Positions 53 to 8,785 of a stretch of 64,000 nucleotides of DNA are shown in pieces (the stretch's first letter is position 1; each line of letters begins with the position of its first letter). A program made the translations under genes and the position numbers. Source of the DNA: Methylobacterium sp. E-065 (GTDB taxonomy: Bacteria > Pseudomonadota > Alphaproteobacteria > Rhizobiales > Beijerinckiaceae); the NCBI RefSeq assembly GCF_022829605.1, contig NZ_JAKSYD010000054.1, positions 62,001 through 126,000 of the forward strand, read 5' to 3'. A model generated the notes under the pieces. It was not told the DNA's origin and did not search any database. It saw nothing but the letters and a program-made list of their open reading frames with translations.

Positions 53-799
53 ATGGCGCCGTTGCCGGACGACGCCGCGGCGGGGCTGTTCGCCGACAGC
101 GCCGAAGCGGCCGCTCTGGGCAAGGAGGCGCCGCACTATCACGGCCACCGCGACCGGCTTCGGGAGAAGTTCGCGGCGGCGGGCAGCGATGCGCTGCCGG
201 ATTACGAGCTTCTGGAGCTGGTCCTGTTCCGGGCGATCCCCCGGCGGGACGTGAAGCCGCTCGCCAAGGCCCTGGTGGCCCGGTTCGGCAGCTTCGCCGA
301 AGCGGTGAGCGCCGAGCCGGTGCGGCTGATGGAGGTACCCGGCGTCAGCGCCGGCGTGGTGTCCGACCTCAAGGTGATCGAGGCGGCCGGGCGGCGACTC
401 GCCCGGGGTGCGATCCGCGAGCGCGAACTGCTCGGCTCGTGGAGCGCGCTGCATGAATACCTGCGCGCCACCATGGCGTTCGCGCCGCGCGAGGAGTTCC
501 GGATGCTGTTCCTCGACAAGCGCAACCACCTCATCGCCGACGAGGTGCAGGGGCGCGGCACCGTCGACCACACCCCGGTCTATCCCCGCGAGGTCGCCCG
601 GCGGGCGCTGGAACTCTCGGCCACCGCCATCATCCTCGCCCACAACCACCCGTCCGGCGATCCGACGCCATCGGCGGCCGATGTGGCGATGACCCGCGAG
701 ATCATCGCCGTCCTGACGCCGCTGAAGATCGTCGTGCACGATCACGTCATCCTGGGGGGAAACGGACATGCCAGCTTGAAAGGTTTGAAGCTGATCTGA
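53..799 (+). CDS. radC: RadC family JAB-domain protein
   Basis: This 248-residue protein belongs to the RadC/YeeS family, historically called DNA repair proteins although the biochemical role remains unclear. The N-terminal part (about residues 30-115) has the helix-hairpin-helix-like region of RadC with its PGVSAGV segment. The C-terminal half is a JAB/MPN-like metalloprotease domain with the diagnostic [14 protein letters not shown] motif from about residue 197, giving the two histidines and the aspartate for metal. The length is slightly above the usual 220-230. It starts 6 bases after the probable map stop, so it is likely co-transcribed with map. No strong ribosome binding site is visible. 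Confidence 0.93.
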
Positions 800-895
800 T
801 CCTTCGGCCGCCTTGAGCGTTGATGCGCACGCCTATAGCCGTGGCGGGATGGCGCGCCTCTTGCCTCAAGAGCAGGAGCGTAAGGGAGGAGTGGG

Positions 896-2335
896 ATGGC
901 GTTGACGGCCTTCGACGAGATGAACGGATTCGGCACCGGTACCGCCGATCCGGCCGCCGTCCGCGACGCCTACGGCCAGCTGAAGGCGTGGCTCGACGCG
1001 ACGCCACCGGAACACTTCAACACCCGCCGCAGCCAGGCCGAGCTGCTGTTCCGCCGGATCGGCATCACCTTCGCGGTCTACGGCGATAACGAATCGACCG
1101 AACGCTTGATCCCGTTCGACATCATCCCCCGGGTGATCACCAAGCCGGAATGGTCCTTCCTCGAGCGCGGGTTGAAGCAGCGGGTGACCGCCATCAACCT
1201 GTTCCTGAAGGACATCTACGGTGCCCAGGAATGCATCAAGGCCGGCATCATTCCGGCCGACCTCGTCTATCGGAACGCCCATTACCGCATGGAGATGCGC
1301 TCGTTCCGGGTGCCACACGACCTCTACGTCCACATCGCCGGCATCGACATCGTGCGCACCGGCGAGAACGACTTCTTCGTGCTGGAGGACAATGCCCGCA
1401 TTCCGTCCGGCGTGTCCTACATGCTGGAGAACCGGGAGGTGATGCTGCGCCTGTTCCCGGACCTGTTCTCCAAGCACCGGGTCGCCCCGGTGGAGAACTA
1501 TCCCGATGCCTTGCTCGCCACCCTGCGCAGCCTCGCGCCGGGCACGGCCACCCGGGACCCCACCGTCGTGCTGCTGACCCCCGGCCGCTACAATTCGGCC
1601 TTCTACGAGCACTCGTTCCTGGCGGACAAGCTCGGCGTCGAGCTGGTGGAGGCGTCCGACCTCTTCACCCGGGACGACGTGGTCTACATGCGCACAACCG
1701 AGGGCCCGCGGAAGGTCGACGTGATCTACCGCCGCCTCGACGATGATTTCCTCGATCCCCTGGTCTTCCGCCCGGACTCCGTGCTCGGCGTACCCGGCCT
1801 GATGAACGCCTACGAGCGCGGCACGGTCACCTTGGCCAACGCGGTCGGGACCGGCATCTCGGACGACAAGGCGGTCTACAGCTACATGCCGGAGATCGTG
1901 AAATTCTTCACCGGCGAGGAGCCGATCCTGCACAACGTGCCGACCTACCGCTGCCGCGAGAAGGACGCCTTCGCGTACGTGATGGACAACCTGTCCGAAC
2001 TCGTCGTGAAGGAGGTCAACGGCTCGGGCGGCTACGGCATGCTGGTCGGGCCGCACGCGAGCAAGCGCGAGATCGACGATTTCGCCAAGAAGCTCAGGCA
2101 CGCGCCGGACGGCTTCATCGCCCAGCCGACCCTGTCACTCTCCACCTGCCCGACCTTCGTGGCCTCGGGCGTCGCGCCCCGACACGTGGATCTACGGCCG
2201 TTCGTGCTATGCGGTGCCGATCAGATCCGCATCGTGCCGGGGGGGCTGACGCGCGTGGCGCTGAAGGAAGGGTCCCTGGTGGTCAATTCCAGTCAGGGCG
2301 GTGGCACGAAGGATACCTGGGTGCTCGACGCCTGA
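896..2335 (+). CDS. Circularly permuted type 2 ATP-grasp protein
   Basis: This 479-residue protein is a circularly permuted ATP-grasp enzyme (DUF404/DUF407 type). The family is predicted to form peptide-like amide bonds using ATP. Visible family features are the segments FNTRRSQAELLFRR, PSGVSYMLENR, VVKEVNGSGGYGMLVGP (nucleotide-binding glycine loop, about residues 370-390) and the C-terminal NSSQGGGTKDTWVL. An unusually strong Shine-Dalgarno run, AAGGGAGGAG, sits a few bases before the ATG. It is the first of a four-gene plus-strand cluster followed by an alpha-E protein, a transglutaminase and Anbu. The substrate is unknown; a peptide-tagging role is a family-level prediction. Confidence 0.92.
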   Translation: MALTAFDEMNGFGTGTADPAAVRDAYGQLKAWLDATPPEHFNTRRSQAELLFRRIGITFAVYGDNESTERLIPFDIIPRVITKPEWSFLERGLKQRVTAINLFLKDIYGAQECIKAGIIPADLVYRNAHYRMEMRSFRVPHDLYVHIAGIDIVRTGENDFFVLEDNARIPSGVSYMLENREVMLRLFPDLFSKHRVAPVENYPDALLATLRSLAPGTATRDPTVVLLTPGRYNSAFYEHSFLADKLGVELVEASDLFTRDDVVYMRTTEGPRKVDVIYRRLDDDFLDPLVFRPDSVLGVPGLMNAYERGTVTLANAVGTGISDDKAVYSYMPEIVKFFTGEEPILHNVPTYRCREKDAFAYVMDNLSELVVKEVNGSGGYGMLVGPHASKREIDDFAKKLRHAPDGFIAQPTLSLSTCPTFVASGVAPRHVDLRPFVLCGADQIRIVPGGLTRVALKEGSLVVNSSQGGGTKDTWVLDA

Positions 2336-2400
2336 GCCCCACGCCATCCGGACGTTCCGAGGCGCGGACATCGTGGTCCGCACGACTTGGCTGAAGACCG

Positions 2401-3348
2401 ATGCTTTCCAGGACCGCCGACAATCTTTTCTGGCTCTCGCGCTACGTCGAGCGCGCCGATTTCGTCGCCCGCATCCTCGATGCGGCGCACCGATTCGCCT
2501 CGTTGCCGACGAGTTATGGCGGCGGCGGTACCAATGAATGGGACTCCGCGCTGGCCTCGGCCGGCGACAGGGACGCGTTCAAGGCGCATTACAGCGTGGT
2601 GAACGCCGATACGGTCTGCGACTTTCTCGCCTTCAGCCCGCACAATCCATCCTCGATCCGCTCCTGCATCGAGGCGGCACGCGAGAATGCCCGTTCGGTG
2701 CGCACGGCGCTCACCACCGAGATGTGGGACGCGATCAACGGCGCATGGCTGGAGCTGCGCAACTACTCCGGCAAGGAGCTCAACCGCGACGAGTTCGGCC
2801 GCTTCCTCGACTGGGTGAAGACGGTGTCGCTGACCTTCGACGGCTCGGCCTTCCGGACGATGCTGCGCAACGACGGGTTCTGGTTCACCCGGCTCGGCAC
2901 CGCCATCGAGCGCGCCGACAACACCGCCCGCATCCTCGACGTGAAGTACAAGATCCTGCTACCCCAGGACGAGACGGTCGGCGGCAGCCTCGACTATTTC
3001 CAGTGGACCACGATCCTGCGCGAAGTCTCGGCCTTCAACGCCTACCACTGGGTGTATCGGGAGAGCGTGAAGCCGCTGCTGGTGGCGGACCTGCTGATGC
3101 TCAACAAGCAGATGCCGCGTTCCTTCGCGAACTGCTACGGCGTGATCGTCGAGTATCTCGACCTGATCGCCGACGCCTATGGCCGCCGGGGGCCGAGCCA
3201 GCGGCTCGCGGGCAACATGCTGGCCAAGCTCGAAGGCGAGGATATCGACCGGGTGTTCGCCTCGGGCCTGCACGAATTCGTCGAGGCCTTCGTTGCCGAG
3301 AACAATAATGTAGGCGAAGCCATCGCCAAGCAGTATCTGGTCGGCTGA
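2401..3348 (+). CDS. Alpha-E domain-containing protein
   Basis: This 315-residue, largely helical protein matches the alpha-E (DUF403) family. The N-terminus MLSRTADNLFWLSRYVERA is diagnostic, and a second similar signature, FWFTRLGTAIERADNTARILD, occurs near residue 160, suggesting an internally duplicated helical unit. The family almost always accompanies circularly permuted ATP-grasp proteins and transglutaminases, as here. Its biochemical function is not established; a scaffold or amino-group transfer role has been proposed from gene context. It begins 65 bases after the ATP-grasp stop with only a weak ribosome binding site, so it probably depends on the same transcript. Confidence 0.9.
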   Translation: MLSRTADNLFWLSRYVERADFVARILDAAHRFASLPTSYGGGGTNEWDSALASAGDRDAFKAHYSVVNADTVCDFLAFSPHNPSSIRSCIEAARENARSVRTALTTEMWDAINGAWLELRNYSGKELNRDEFGRFLDWVKTVSLTFDGSAFRTMLRNDGFWFTRLGTAIERADNTARILDVKYKILLPQDETVGGSLDYFQWTTILREVSAFNAYHWVYRESVKPLLVADLLMLNKQMPRSFANCYGVIVEYLDLIADAYGRRGPSQRLAGNMLAKLEGEDIDRVFASGLHEFVEAFVAENNNVGEAIAKQYLVG

Positions 3349-3369
3349 CCGAGACGGACAGGACGGCGC

Positions 3370-4197
3370 ATGCGCATTCGCGTGGTCCACGAGACCATCT
3401 ACACCTACGAGCAGCCCGCCCGCGGGCTCGTGCAGGTCCTGCGCCTCACGCCCAGGGATCATGACGGGCAGTATGTCCGGAACTGGCGGATCGACACCAC
3501 GGTCGACGGGCGGCTGACCGCCCGCGAGGACGGGTTCGGCAACATCGTCCATTGGTTCACCCCAGACGAGCCGACCGACGCCCTGATCATCAAGGTGACC
3601 GGTGCGGTCGATACCGAGGATACGCAAGGGGTCGTGCGCGGTACGATCGAGCGCCTGCCGGATGCGTTCTACCTGCGCGACACGGATCTCTGCGCGACGA
3701 GCGTCGAGCTGCAGGGATTCGCCGAGCGCGTCGCGACCGATGGGGACGCGTCGCCGCTGGCCTTGCTCCACCGCCTGATGGACGCTGTCCCCGAAGCGGT
3801 CGCGTTCGAGCCGGGTCCGGCCGCGAATGCCGTCCCGGCCGGCAAGGCCTTCACGGCGGGTCGGGGCATCTGCCAGGATCTGACGCACGTCTTCATCGCG
3901 GCGGCCCGGCATATCGGCATCCCGGCGCGCTACGTGGCTGGCTATCGGGCCCGCGACGACGGCGAGGCCGAGGTTGAGGCACCGCACGGCTGGGCCGAGA
4001 CATTGGTGCCGGATCTCGGCTGGGTCGCGTTCGATCCGTGCTTCGGGATGAGCCCGTCCGACAGCTACATCCGCGTTGCCACGGGACTCGACTATCTCGG
4101 TGCCGCGCCGATCCGCGGCAGCCGCACCGGCGGCGGCATCGAGACACTGGACGTGAAGCTTCACGTCGAGCAAGGCAGGGCCGCGATCCAATCCTGA
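3370..4197 (+). CDS. Transglutaminase-like family protein
   Basis: This 275-residue protein combines the N-terminal bacterial transglutaminase-associated beta region (about residues 1-80) with a transglutaminase-like cysteine peptidase core. The catalytic triad is visible: Cys168 in RGICQDLTH, His206 in APHGWAET and Asp222 in AFDPCFG. Such domains in bacteria usually cleave rather than form amide bonds. It lies 21 bases after the alpha-E gene and 41 bases before the Anbu gene. The expected partnership is an ATP-grasp ligase that makes an amide bond and a transglutaminase-fold peptidase that breaks it; the actual substrate is unknown. Confidence 0.92.
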   Translation: MRIRVVHETIYTYEQPARGLVQVLRLTPRDHDGQYVRNWRIDTTVDGRLTAREDGFGNIVHWFTPDEPTDALIIKVTGAVDTEDTQGVVRGTIERLPDAFYLRDTDLCATSVELQGFAERVATDGDASPLALLHRLMDAVPEAVAFEPGPAANAVPAGKAFTAGRGICQDLTHVFIAAARHIGIPARYVAGYRARDDGEAEVEAPHGWAETLVPDLGWVAFDPCFGMSPSDSYIRVATGLDYLGAAPIRGSRTGGGIETLDVKLHVEQGRAAIQS

Positions 4198-4238
4198 TTC
4201 CCGCGACACCGGCCCCGGCCGCACGAGAGCCCAAGACG

Positions 4239-4988
4239 ATGACCTACTGCGTCGGTGTCCTAGTCGAGGACGGGCTCGTGATGGTCGCCGACACCCGCAC
4301 CAATGCGGGGCTCGACGATATTTCGACCTATCGCAAGCTGCATCACTTCAACGTCCCGGGCGAGCGGGTGATGATGCTGGCCTCCGCCGGCAACCTGTCG
4401 ATCACCCAGTCGGTGCTGAGCCTGCTGCAGGAGGGGGTTCCCGGCGAGGACGATGAGCCGCCTCAGCGGCTCGTCGAGGCGCCGACGATGTTCCAGGCGG
4501 CGCAGCTGATCGGGCGCGCGATCCGTCGGGTCCGCATGATCGAGAAGGACGGCTTCGAGGCGGCCAATATCCGGTTCTCGATCTCGCTCCTGTTCGGCGG
4601 CCAGATCGGCACCGGCGAGATGCGGCTGTACCTGATCTACTCGGCCGGCAATTTCATCGAGTGCAGCATGGACGCGCCGTTCCTCCAGATCGGCGAGCAC
4701 AAATACGGCAAGCCGATTCTCGACCGGGCGGTGACCTACCGGACCGACCTGTACGACGCCCTGAAGGTGAGCCTCGTCTCGATGGATTCAACCATGCGTT
4801 CGAATCTCGGGGTGGGATTGCCGATCGACATCGCGGTGGCGCGCCGGAACGCCCTCAACCCGGAGGTGAACCACCGGATCGAGGCCGGCGAGGGGTATTT
4901 TCACGATCTGCGCGAGCGCTGGTCGGCGGCGCTCCGGGCGGCGCACCGGGCGATCCCGCGGCCGCCCTATGGGCCTTCGGAGAAGTAG
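4239..4988 (+). CDS. Anbu: proteasome-type self-compartmentalising hydrolase subunit
   Basis: This 249-residue protein is the bacterial Anbu (ancestral beta subunit) homologue of HslV and 20S proteasome beta subunits. The ATG at 4239 puts Thr directly after Met, so N-terminal processing would expose the nucleophile: MTYCVGVLVEDG. Counting from that threonine, Asp17 (VADTRT) and Lys32 (TYRKLHHF) are in the positions of the Ntn-hydrolase active site, followed by the glycine-containing ASAGNLS turn. The longer open frame begins upstream, but only this start exposes the catalytic threonine. It is the last gene of the ATP-grasp/alpha-E/transglutaminase cluster. A physiological substrate for Anbu is not firmly established. 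Confidence 0.93.
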   Translation: MTYCVGVLVEDGLVMVADTRTNAGLDDISTYRKLHHFNVPGERVMMLASAGNLSITQSVLSLLQEGVPGEDDEPPQRLVEAPTMFQAAQLIGRAIRRVRMIEKDGFEAANIRFSISLLFGGQIGTGEMRLYLIYSAGNFIECSMDAPFLQIGEHKYGKPILDRAVTYRTDLYDALKVSLVSMDSTMRSNLGVGLPIDIAVARRNALNPEVNHRIEAGEGYFHDLRERWSAALRAAHRAIPRPPYGPSEK

Positions 4989-5002
4989 CGAGGCGGAACG
5001 CG

Positions 5003-5632
5003 TCAGCCGGGCTGCAGAGCAGTTAGCAAGGTCCGCGCGGCTCCAGCCGGGTCGCTGGCGCGCATCAACCCGCCCATGATGGCGACGGCCGCCGCTCCGG
5101 CCTCCCGACACACGGCGACCGAGTCGGGTTCGATACCGCCGAGTGCCACGACCGGGAGGCCCGCACGTCGTACGGCGGCGATCCCCCCGGGACCGAGGGT
5201 CGGTCCGTAGCCCGGCTTGCTCGCAGTCGGAAAGATCGGGCTGAGCGTCACGTAATCGGCGCCGGCCGCCGCGGCCTGCGCGACTTCATACGGCGCATGA
5301 GCCGATACGCCGATCAGCGCCTCCGTTCTCAGCGCGTCCCGTGCAGCGGCGATCGCCTCCGCATCCGAGCCGCCGCCGAGATGCACTCCGTCGGCGCCGA
5401 GCGCCCGGGCCAGAGCGACATCGGCCCCGACTGTCAGGATCCCGCCCGCCGCCCTTACACGCTCGGCCACGGCCTCACCGAGCCGCAATCGGGCCTCGGG
5501 CTCCAGGTCGCGGTCACGGAACCAGATCCAGCGACCGCCGCCGGCCAGGATCGCCTGTACGGTCTCGGCGAGCGGCCGCGCGTTGCCGTGCCGGTCCGTC
5601 ACCGCCAGCAGCGGCGACGGGAGCTTCCTCAC
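5003..5632 (-). CDS. thiE: Thiamine phosphate synthase
   Basis: This 209-residue TIM-barrel protein should condense hydroxymethylpyrimidine diphosphate with carboxythiazole phosphate to give thiamine phosphate. Family segments are visible in order: WFRDRDL near the N-terminus, [31 protein letters not shown], and the phosphate-binding ALGGIEP and AAVAIMGG loops near the end. The GTG at 5632 is chosen because it overlaps the thiG stop as GTGA, giving a normal thiE length. The open frame continues much further upstream but there it is only the shadow of thiG. It is the last gene of thiOSGE. Confidence 0.93.
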
Positions 5633-6432
5633 GAGCCGACGAGGCCGAGTTGCGGGCTCGACGGCTCGGCCCGGCCGCGCCGCGGGATGCGTCCGGCCAG
5701 GTACGCGTCGCGCCCGGCCGCCACGGCCCGGCCCATGGCACGGGCCATGCGCACCGGGTCGTCGGCCTTGGCGACCGCGGTGTTGATCAGGCAGGCGGAC
5801 GCCCCGAGCTCCATGGCGATCACCGCATCCGACGCCGTGCCGATCCCGGCATCGACCACCACGGGCACTTTGGCCCGGCGGCAGATCAGCTCGAGATTGG
5901 CCGGGTTGGCCACCCCCATCCCGGAGCCGATCAGCGAGCCCATCGGCATCACGGCGGCGCAGCCGAGATCCTCCAGGCGCTGGCAGACGATCGGGTCGTC
6001 GTTGCAATAGGGCAGGACCACGAAGCCGTCGTCCACGAGGTGGCGGCAGGCCTCCATCAACTCGACGACGTCCGGGTACAGGGTCTCACGGTCGCCGATC
6101 ACCTCGACCTTGATCCAGTTGGTGTCCAACGCCTCACGGGCGAGTTCGGCGGTCATGATCGCGTCGCGGGCAGTCTCGCAGCCGGCGGTGTTCGGCAGGA
6201 AGCGCCTGCCCTTCAGCAACGTCACCGTGTCCGAGCCGTGGCCCTGAAGCGAGACCCGGCGGATCGAGGCGGTCACCACCTCGGCTCCGCTCGCCGCGAC
6301 GGCGTCGCGCATGATCGCCTGTGTGGGATAACCGGCGGTGCCGATGAACAATCGGGACGACAAGCTCACCCCGGCGATGGTGAAGCTGTCGGCCTCCGGA
6401 TCGGGGCGCAGCGGCGTGACGCTCTGGTCCAT
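5629..6432 (-). CDS. thiG: Thiazole synthase
   Basis: This 267-residue protein makes the thiazole phosphate carboxylate from 1-deoxyxylulose 5-phosphate, dehydroglycine and ThiS thiocarboxylate. Visible landmarks are [10 protein letters not shown] near the N-terminus, the Schiff-base lysine in [22 protein letters not shown], and the phosphate-binding [10 protein letters not shown] and [11 protein letters not shown] loops. The ATG at 6432 is preferred because a good AGGGAGG ribosome binding site precedes it at the end of thiS. An in-frame TTG two codons upstream, overlapping the thiS stop, is less likely. It overlaps thiE by 4 bases. Confidence 0.95.
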
Positions 6433-7873: not shown

Positions 7874-7949
7874 AAGATTCCAACGTGGAGATCGGGCCAG
7901 GTGCTTCGGTGCGAAGCTGTGGCCTGCCTGTCGGGCGGCCGCGGTCCAA

Positions 7950-8053
7950 TCCCTACGCCGGTATGATCCGGATCAGGTTCGAAGGATTTCCGCGCCGCAG
8001 GTCCTGACGGACGTGCCAGCGGTTTCTCAGCCCCTTGCCGGGGATCTCCCTGG
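7950..8053 (-). promoter_or_regulatory. TPP riboswitch (THI element)
   Basis: Read on the minus strand, this stretch contains the near-invariant THI-box sequences: GGGGCTGAGA near 8033, then GAACCTGATCCGGATCATAC and CGGCGTAGGGA ending near 7951. These are the thiamine-pyrophosphate-binding helices of the aptamer. It ends about 80 bases before the thiO start, leaving space for an expression platform, so thiamine pyrophosphate should repress thiOSGE. The remaining 220 bases up to the divergent gene at 8276 show no coding potential and must hold the promoters of both directions. Confidence 0.95.
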
Positions 8054-8275
8054 AACAGGCATAGATTTGGTTGCCCGCCTGCCGCCGGTCAACCCCGCCG
8101 CCGGGGCGACGACCGGTCTTACGGCGAAAACAGCCGGGTTCCGGTCATGGTCCGGACACCACGCCGCGCGGAATCGGCACCTCACGGCGCCGGCGTCAGG
8201 TCCCGCGCACGATCCCTTCATGGGTCCGGGGTCTCATCGCCCAACGGCTGCACCCCCATCCACAGGCTGACCCGC

Positions 8276-8785
8276 GTGCGCACAATCCTGCTCGTCTGCA
8301 CACTCGGCTTCCTGGGTGTCACGGCCGTGCAGAAGCTGCGTGAGAGCCTCCGCCCCGTGCCGGCCGCCCTACTCGTCGCGTCCCAGACGGGGCCGGCCCT
8401 CGACGCCGCCGTGACGTCGGGCGTCGCGCTTCAGGCTGGCCGCAACGGCCATTTCTTCGTCCAGGCCCTGCTGGACGGCCGTACGCTGCCGATGATGGTG
8501 GATACCGGTGCGAGCGCCTGCGCCTTCTCCGAGGAGGATGCGGCACGCATCGGGATCCGGGTCGGTCCCGCGGATTTCACCCGCGTCTGGAACACGGCGA
8601 ACGGTCGGGTCCGGGTCGCACCGATCCGGATCGCGGTGGTGCAGATCGGATCGATCACGGTGCGGGACGTGGAGGCGGTGGTGATCCCGCGGGGGCTCCT
8701 CGCGACCAGCCTGCTGGGGATGTCGTTCCTCGGGCGCCTGCGTGAGTTCAGCGTTGCCGGCAGCACGATGACGCTCCGAGGTTGA
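8276..8785 (+). CDS. Retropepsin-like clan AA aspartic protease (TIGR02281 type)
   Basis: This 169-residue protein begins with a hydrophobic N-terminal anchor or signal (ILLVCTLGFLGV). It carries the catalytic aspartate motif MMVDTGASACAFS near residue 80, typical of single-domain, dimerising retropepsin-like proteases. The later VVIPRGLLATSLLGMSFLGRL segment is the usual second half of the fold in this family. The GTG at 8276 is chosen because it starts the membrane segment directly; the longer frame upstream overlaps the region divergent to thiO. It is transcribed divergently from thiOSGE. Its substrates are unknown, and periplasmic location is inferred from the anchor. Confidence 0.85.
   Translation: MRTILLVCTLGFLGVTAVQKLRESLRPVPAALLVASQTGPALDAAVTSGVALQAGRNGHFFVQALLDGRTLPMMVDTGASACAFSEEDAARIGIRVGPADFTRVWNTANGRVRVAPIRIAVVQIGSITVRDVEAVVIPRGLLATSLLGMSFLGRLREFSVAGSTMTLRG

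Follow-up and report, generated by a model that had tools for sequence, protein, structure and literature searches.

The 64,000-nucleotide stretch of Methylobacterium sp. E-065 analysed here (contig NZ_JAKSYD010000054.1, positions 62,001 to 126,000; hereafter the window) carries at positions 896-4988 four plus-strand genes encoding, in this order, a circularly permuted ATP-grasp ligase (CP_ATPgrasp), an Alpha-E protein, a transglutaminase-like protein (TG), and the proteasome relative Anbu. Judged by its gene families, the locus is a canonical Anbu operon of the kind published before (PMC5666114, PMC6376114), and a further member of that system. Comparison with related loci suggests that the TG nucleophile Cys168 can be lost while the operon stays, and that the operon may be switched on via sigma-54, a route shared by many genes of the nitrogen-stress response. 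The features of the locus are listed below with lengths in amino acids (aa) and expect values (E).

850-864, plus strand: putative sigma-54 type promoter site TGGCGCG-CCTC-TTGC (GG at 851-852, GC at 863-864)
883-891, plus strand: Shine-Dalgarno sequence AGGGAGGAG, 5' of the first gene (ATP-grasp), read directly in the sequence
896-2335, plus strand: circularly permuted ATP-grasp ligase (CP_ATPgrasp_2), 479 aa; Pfam E 2.4e-164; 3n6x E 1.2e-199
2401-3348, plus strand: Alpha-E helical protein, 315 aa; Pfam E 9.4e-96
3370-4197, plus strand: TG, 275 aa; Bact_transglu_N E 5.3e-22, Transglut_core E 5.9e-20
4239-4988, plus strand: Anbu, N-terminal-threonine hydrolase of the proteasome/HslV group, 249 aa; Pfam Proteasome E 7.3e-6

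The start of Anbu was placed at the ATG at 4239, where homology begins (the mechanical open reading frame, ORF, runs 4038-4988). The gaps within the four-gene set are 65, 21, and 41 bases long, and the neighbouring ORF after Anbu (5003-6007) lies on the opposite strand, which makes a single transcript across the four genes plausible. The ORFs of the four genes and their Pfam and PDB matches (Pfam only for Alpha-E) confirmed the identities, coordinates, and order given in the original prediction for this locus, whereas the strong ribosome binding site, which had been taken as a sign of activity, is uninformative on chemistry. The closest named locus was L005 of Methylobacterium sp. J-088, with a ligase identity of 100%; the window's genome comprises 6.99 Mb in 304 contigs.

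A conserved order of the four genes is described in PMC6376114. The Yersinia bercovieri-type Anbu operon, as presented in PMC6376114 and PMC5666114, shares with the window the four families, their order, and the Anbu residues Thr1, Asp17, and Lys; in contrast, the window's group has a fixed sigma-54 site and close relatives without the TG cysteine. According to PMC5666114, the other proteins of the Anbu operon are present, sparsely, in archaea too.

Conservation and selection in the operon proteins

The window's TG, whose relatives of solved structure found by sequence are 3isr and 6g49, contains Cys168, His206, and Asp222. Conservation was evaluated in 137 complete and distinct operon TGs, the window's included; identical copies, incomplete genes, sequences outside 221-339 aa, and proteins matching paralogous TGs better were dropped. 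Cys168 was present in 102 of these proteins and absent in 35, being replaced by Gly (12), Pro (11), Ala (6), Ser (4), Thr (1), or a gap (1); an earlier count, not de-duplicated, gave 33/140 without the cysteine. His206, Trp208, Trp218, and Asp222 were found in 137/137 and Glu210 in 134/137. The Cys-less set takes in ten Methylobacterium proteins (L051-L058, L060, and L091), the pair L019/L023, Bosea, Alsobacter, and others. Five of the Cys-less Methylobacterium TGs contain no cysteine at all, and a displaced cysteine nucleophile is therefore ruled out in these five. The predicted structure of the zero-cysteine TG L054 (predicted local distance difference test, pLDDT, 72.6; predicted template modelling score, pTM, 0.74) matched a TG fold in Foldseek, that of 3isr (E 9.3e-17, template modelling score 0.63). 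In the TG tree, which was built by a quick method and supported by the Shimodaira-Hasegawa-like approximate likelihood ratio test (SH-aLRT) only, the 16-row clade that holds the window's TG has the Cys-less pair L019/L023 as its sister group, with 96% support for the fork. The state of Cys168 changed six times on the best tree, at least three changes being forced by well-supported branches. No report of a Cys-less TG in an Anbu operon was found in the open-licence literature. The earlier claim that the system needs the TG as a working cysteine peptidase is left unsupported, because Cys168 is missing in these 35 homologues, same-genus relatives included.

The ligase domain is full length, and its PDB relative by sequence is 3n6x. 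Residues Glu164, Asn166, Arg280, Lys325, Lys372, Asp432, and Arg434 were found in 165/165 ligase rows, and residue 2 of Anbu was Thr in 152 of 153 rows (Ser in one), with Asp18 and Lys33 in 153/153; the ligase and Anbu rows were not de-duplicated, and some genomes are counted twice. Glu164, Asn166, Lys325, and Lys372 of the ligase probably bind ATP or Mg, and the Y. bercovieri ATP-grasp protein is reported to free phosphate from ATP (PMC6376114). The window's Anbu begins with Met-Thr, contains Thr2, Asp18, and Lys33, and matched five PDB Anbu sequences, including 5loy and 5nyj (best E 1.5e-78). Alpha-E yielded no relative of solved structure in the sequence search of PDB; its residues Glu17, Arg18, Arg24, Arg101, Asn113, Glu170, and Arg171, and with them both ER motifs (Glu17-Arg18 and Glu170-Arg171), were kept in 147/147 rows. 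In 141 of the 142 loci with enough sequence, the ligase is followed by a same-strand Alpha-E gene and, since both domains are also fused in a paralogue described below, this argues for a joint step of the two proteins. The TG gene lies within 3.5 kb of the ligase in 126/142 loci, and two of the misses (L041 and L047) have a longer insertion before TG. In the Methylorubrum-type operons L040, L041, L042, and L047, Alpha-E and TG are separated by an ORF of roughly 500 aa that resembles a transporter by eye.

The original prediction had described the key residues of this copy as intact, which is correct for the TG triad and for the Anbu Thr after Met, and had named inactive-site substitutions in close homologues as refuting evidence. 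Such substitutions occur in TG; they are not seen in the ligase and Anbu, where the residues are near-invariant. Because ATP-grasp, Alpha-E, and Anbu hardly vary at their key residues, the half of that hypothesis concerning the ligase and Anbu survives.

Selection was assessed by the ratio of nonsynonymous to synonymous substitution rates (dN/dS). Of the Cys-less clades, Methylobacterium had a median TG value of 0.300 and Bosea one of 0.324, compared with 0.150, 0.097, and 0.216 in three Cys-bearing groups, and TG was the fastest-evolving operon gene in every group. In the Cys-less Methylobacterium clade, the medians of Anbu, ligase, and Alpha-E were 0.070, 0.078, and 0.160, respectively; the Cys-bearing groups gave 0.040-0.044 for the ligase and 0.046-0.075 for Alpha-E. 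Judged by the TG, Anbu, and ligase values of the Cys-less clade, operons with a Cys-less TG remain under purifying selection and are not decaying. The data support a regulated unit kept by selection.

Sigma-54 type site and distribution of the operon

In the putative promoter site, the GG and GC are spaced ten bases apart, the surrounding pattern is TGGC-N7-TTGC, and a start codon follows shortly downstream, 31 bases separating the end of the site (864) from the ligase ATG at 896. The window has no other exact match to TGGCNCG-N4-TTGC, and 0.24 would be expected; at least one match occurred in 20 of 100 shuffles, so the motif match alone is weak and proves little. The window's genome showed no excess of this pattern (19 matches versus 34 for the reversed control) or of TGGCAYG-N4-TTGC (3 versus 7), and a stricter consensus with up to two mismatches gave 4 matches in the window versus 7.4 expected. 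No sigma-70 type promoter was found within 700-5300, where 0.7 were expected. Conservation is the sole evidence for the predicted sigma-54 site. The site was kept in 58/58 loci (L005-L061 and L066, from Methylobacterium, Methylorubrum, and one metagenome-assembled genome, MAG, labelled Beijerinckiaceae), at a distance of 43-65 bases upstream of the ligase start; within it, TGGC and TTGC were invariant, and each of the 25 preceding bases was at most 66% conserved. The site was not found in L072, a MAG labelled Methylobacterium that lies outside this set and whose TG groups with Bosea.

A sigma-54 matrix, used with a threshold passed by 1% of mononucleotide shuffles, recovered 65 of 80 named loci. 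In a sample of 249 genomes of the window's phylum, it was passed by 39/84 operon loci and by 15/1274 control upstreams, taken from other mechanical ORFs of at least 200 aa; the 84 loci are 98 rows less 14 duplicates, come from part of 131 genomes, and include four of the same genus. The rpoN gene was found in 223/249 genomes, the window's genome among them. The NtrC site TGCAC-N7-GTGCA showed no clear enrichment, with at least 8/10 letters in 22 of 105 loci that have a sigma-54 site versus about 15% of shuffles; good NtrC-like palindromes were seen at a few loci (L169, L214, and L186).

Control of Anbu by sigma-54 is not wholly new and is partly in print. According to a 2025 survey, the sigma-54 regulon members enriched in the alpha, beta, and gamma classes include the COG3484 proteasome-type protease (PMC12316311). 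In Burkholderia cenocepacia, a ligase/Alpha-E/TG/large TG cluster, for which the available text of PMC5491218 lists no Anbu, is described as NtrC- and sigma-54-dependent, with a log2 drop of 8.2 to 9.4 for ligase/Alpha-E/TG in the ntrC mutant. P. putida PP_2686-2688 are reported to rise 11- to 15-fold at nitrogen limitation (PMC7801951).

In the phylum sample, Anbu was detected in 85/249 genomes and a ligase homologue in 132/249, the standalone type of ligase in at least 131 genomes among the matches listed. Anbu lay within 12 kb of the ligase in 71 of the 85 Anbu genomes, again among the matches listed; of two further genomes, G094 had no ligase match and the ligase of G149 was not placed. 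Anbu was missing downstream in 16/137 TG loci despite at least 1.5 kb of sequence. A neighbouring Anbu was lacking for 9/35 Cys-less and 7/102 Cys-bearing TGs (plus one cut contig), a comparison confounded by kinship.

Several neighbouring genes were also recorded. Orphan Anbu genes had, among mechanical ORFs judged by eye, a mutS-like ORF nearby at L147, L148, L149, L154, L155, and L156, and an alpha/beta hydrolase-like ORF at L147, L148, L149, L153, L155, and L156. At L204 (5387-7432), about 2 kb separates TG from Anbu, and the longest ORF there (479 aa, minus strand) is substrate-binding-protein-like by eye. In the window, a thiamine pyrophosphate (TPP) riboswitch was detected at 7932-8060 on the minus strand (58 bits versus a gathering score of 54.3); the genes 3' of it, on the minus strand and thiamine-related by eye, are directed towards the Anbu operon. 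The plus-strand ORF at 8147-8785 has a VDTGAS motif and is presumably retropepsin-like, a possible aspartic protease.

Proposed function and alternative explanations

In the proposed reading, the locus is a canonical Anbu operon with a sigma-54 promoter that encodes an amide-ligase system with TG as an accessory protein and Anbu as a hydrolase. The ATP-grasp and Alpha-E proteins would activate a carboxylate with ATP and join it to an amine or peptide through an amide bond. The TG-fold protein would bind or deliver the substrate or product, with cysteine-type hydrolysis as an optional extra that is not essential, and the N-terminal threonine of Anbu would cleave the amide product. A sigma-54 activator would induce the operon, probably when nitrogen is limiting, as the Pseudomonas and Burkholderia cases suggest by analogy. 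An accessory TG is favoured by the near-invariant ligase residues, Alpha-E ER motifs, and Anbu Thr/Asp/Lys as against the variable TG cysteine. The reading as a whole is given a little less than an even chance. More tentatively, and with the balance tilted against it, the TG of Anbu operons may not be primarily a cysteine hydrolase but a binding or acyl-handling partner of ATP-grasp/Alpha-E based on His/Trp/Asp, from which the cysteine has been lost repeatedly without loss of operon function. Of the original hypothesis, a ligase whose product is processed by a peptidase and Anbu, the part on the ligase and Anbu survives, and the part on the peptidase is unsupported as stated. The hypothesis is also not new: PMC5666114 names Iyer et al. 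2009 as the source of the proposal that these genes form a system for peptide synthesis in which Anbu serves as the peptidase. A comparable combination is the Pseudomonas aeruginosa rlo operon (PMC12239564), where an inactive transglutaminase domain works in one process with a protease and an ATP-grasp protein; there, however, the ATP-grasp protein is RimK-like, the TG membrane-bound, and the protease aspartic, and Alpha-E and Anbu are not named in the available part of that source.

The window's genome contains a second cluster at G000:C218, comprising TG, a fused ATP-grasp/Alpha-E protein, and a large TG, which we take to be of the DUF2126 type. The two clusters share a homologous ligase and Alpha-E with TGs alongside; in the paralogue, the ligase and Alpha-E domains lie in one open frame of 860 codons, whereas the window's operon keeps separate genes. 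The window's Anbu is the only Anbu match of the genome, and a looser sigma-54 pattern was not found just upstream of the first gene of the paralogous cluster. This cluster bears on a rival model, rather unlikely though a serious contender, in which an amide or peptide made by the ligase is processed by TG, as a cysteine peptidase, and Anbu, with the paralogous TG supplying the cysteine in trans where the operon TG is Cys-less. All 26 Cys-less genomes examined have a second ligase cluster: of the 29 named Cys-less loci, the genomes of 20 were searched, and each contains a homologue of the fused paralogue; 7/7 Cys-less phylum-sample genomes have a second ligase match, less one genome counted in both sets (the matches of G167 and of the L059 genome lie at almost the same places). 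A second TG with the Cys motif was present in all seven of the latter. In the phylum sample, a second ligase match was found with 7 and lacking with 0 Cys-less TGs, against 23 and 33 Cys-bearing TGs (Fisher p 0.0037, ignoring kinship), an association that is suggestive only and may reflect shared ancestry. The lost cysteine activity may therefore be supplied in trans instead of being unneeded. Left unexplained by the model are the retention of the Cys-less TG gene and of His206, Trp208, and Asp222 in 35/35 Cys-less TGs. The same His, Trp, and Asp residues, kept across several separate losses, together with intact reading frames and dN/dS well below 1, make it improbable that Cys-less TGs are decaying leftovers, uninformative on mechanism, despite their higher dN/dS. 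Similarly improbable is tagging followed by bulk proteolysis, already proposed as reported in PMC6376114: the ligase, alone or together with TG, would tag proteins for degradation by Anbu in nitrogen starvation, much as in a small proteasome system. The kinship of Anbu with the proteasome and the nitrogen control seen in other species (PMC5491218, PMC7801951) favour such a role, but the Pfam search revealed no unfoldase among the four operon genes, no Anbu peptidase activity was found in the work reported in PMC6376114, and the TG loci without a downstream Anbu are not accounted for.

Besides the second ligase clusters and the Cys motif of the second TGs, several further observations weigh against the accessory-TG, sigma-54-controlled reading. 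Relaxation is wider than TG, with ligase and Alpha-E dN/dS in Cys-less clades about 2-3 times that of Cys-bearing clades, and Anbu is unlinked to the ligase in 12/85 Anbu genomes (in 6, on different contigs of drafts). PMC6376114 reports that the Anbus of Yersinia, Hyphomicrobium, and Pseudomonas cleaved 0/3 peptide substrates and that a complex of Anbu with other operon proteins was not detected. As for regulation, 13/13 Bosea-group loci failed the sigma-54 threshold, and 2/7 loci passed it in genomes of one family in which no rpoN was found; given these passes and the differences between lineages, single weak matrix matches are untrustworthy. The NtrC core GCAC-N7-GTGC reached 7/8 letters in 3/58 Methylobacterium-group loci versus about 22% of shuffles, which is not above chance, and this search for NtrC-like palindromes yielded no activator site in Methylobacterium. 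In the P. putida data of PMC7801951, loss of rpoN left a 14- to 20-fold induction of PP_2686-2688, and the wild type showed a rise of just 1.12-fold for the Anbu gene PP_2685.

Given the natural Cys-less variants, a Cys-to-Ala mutant of TG may be uninformative, and the conserved His/Trp/Asp face is the part of this protein worth probing. The sigma-54 site points to an inducing condition for the operon, probably low nitrogen.

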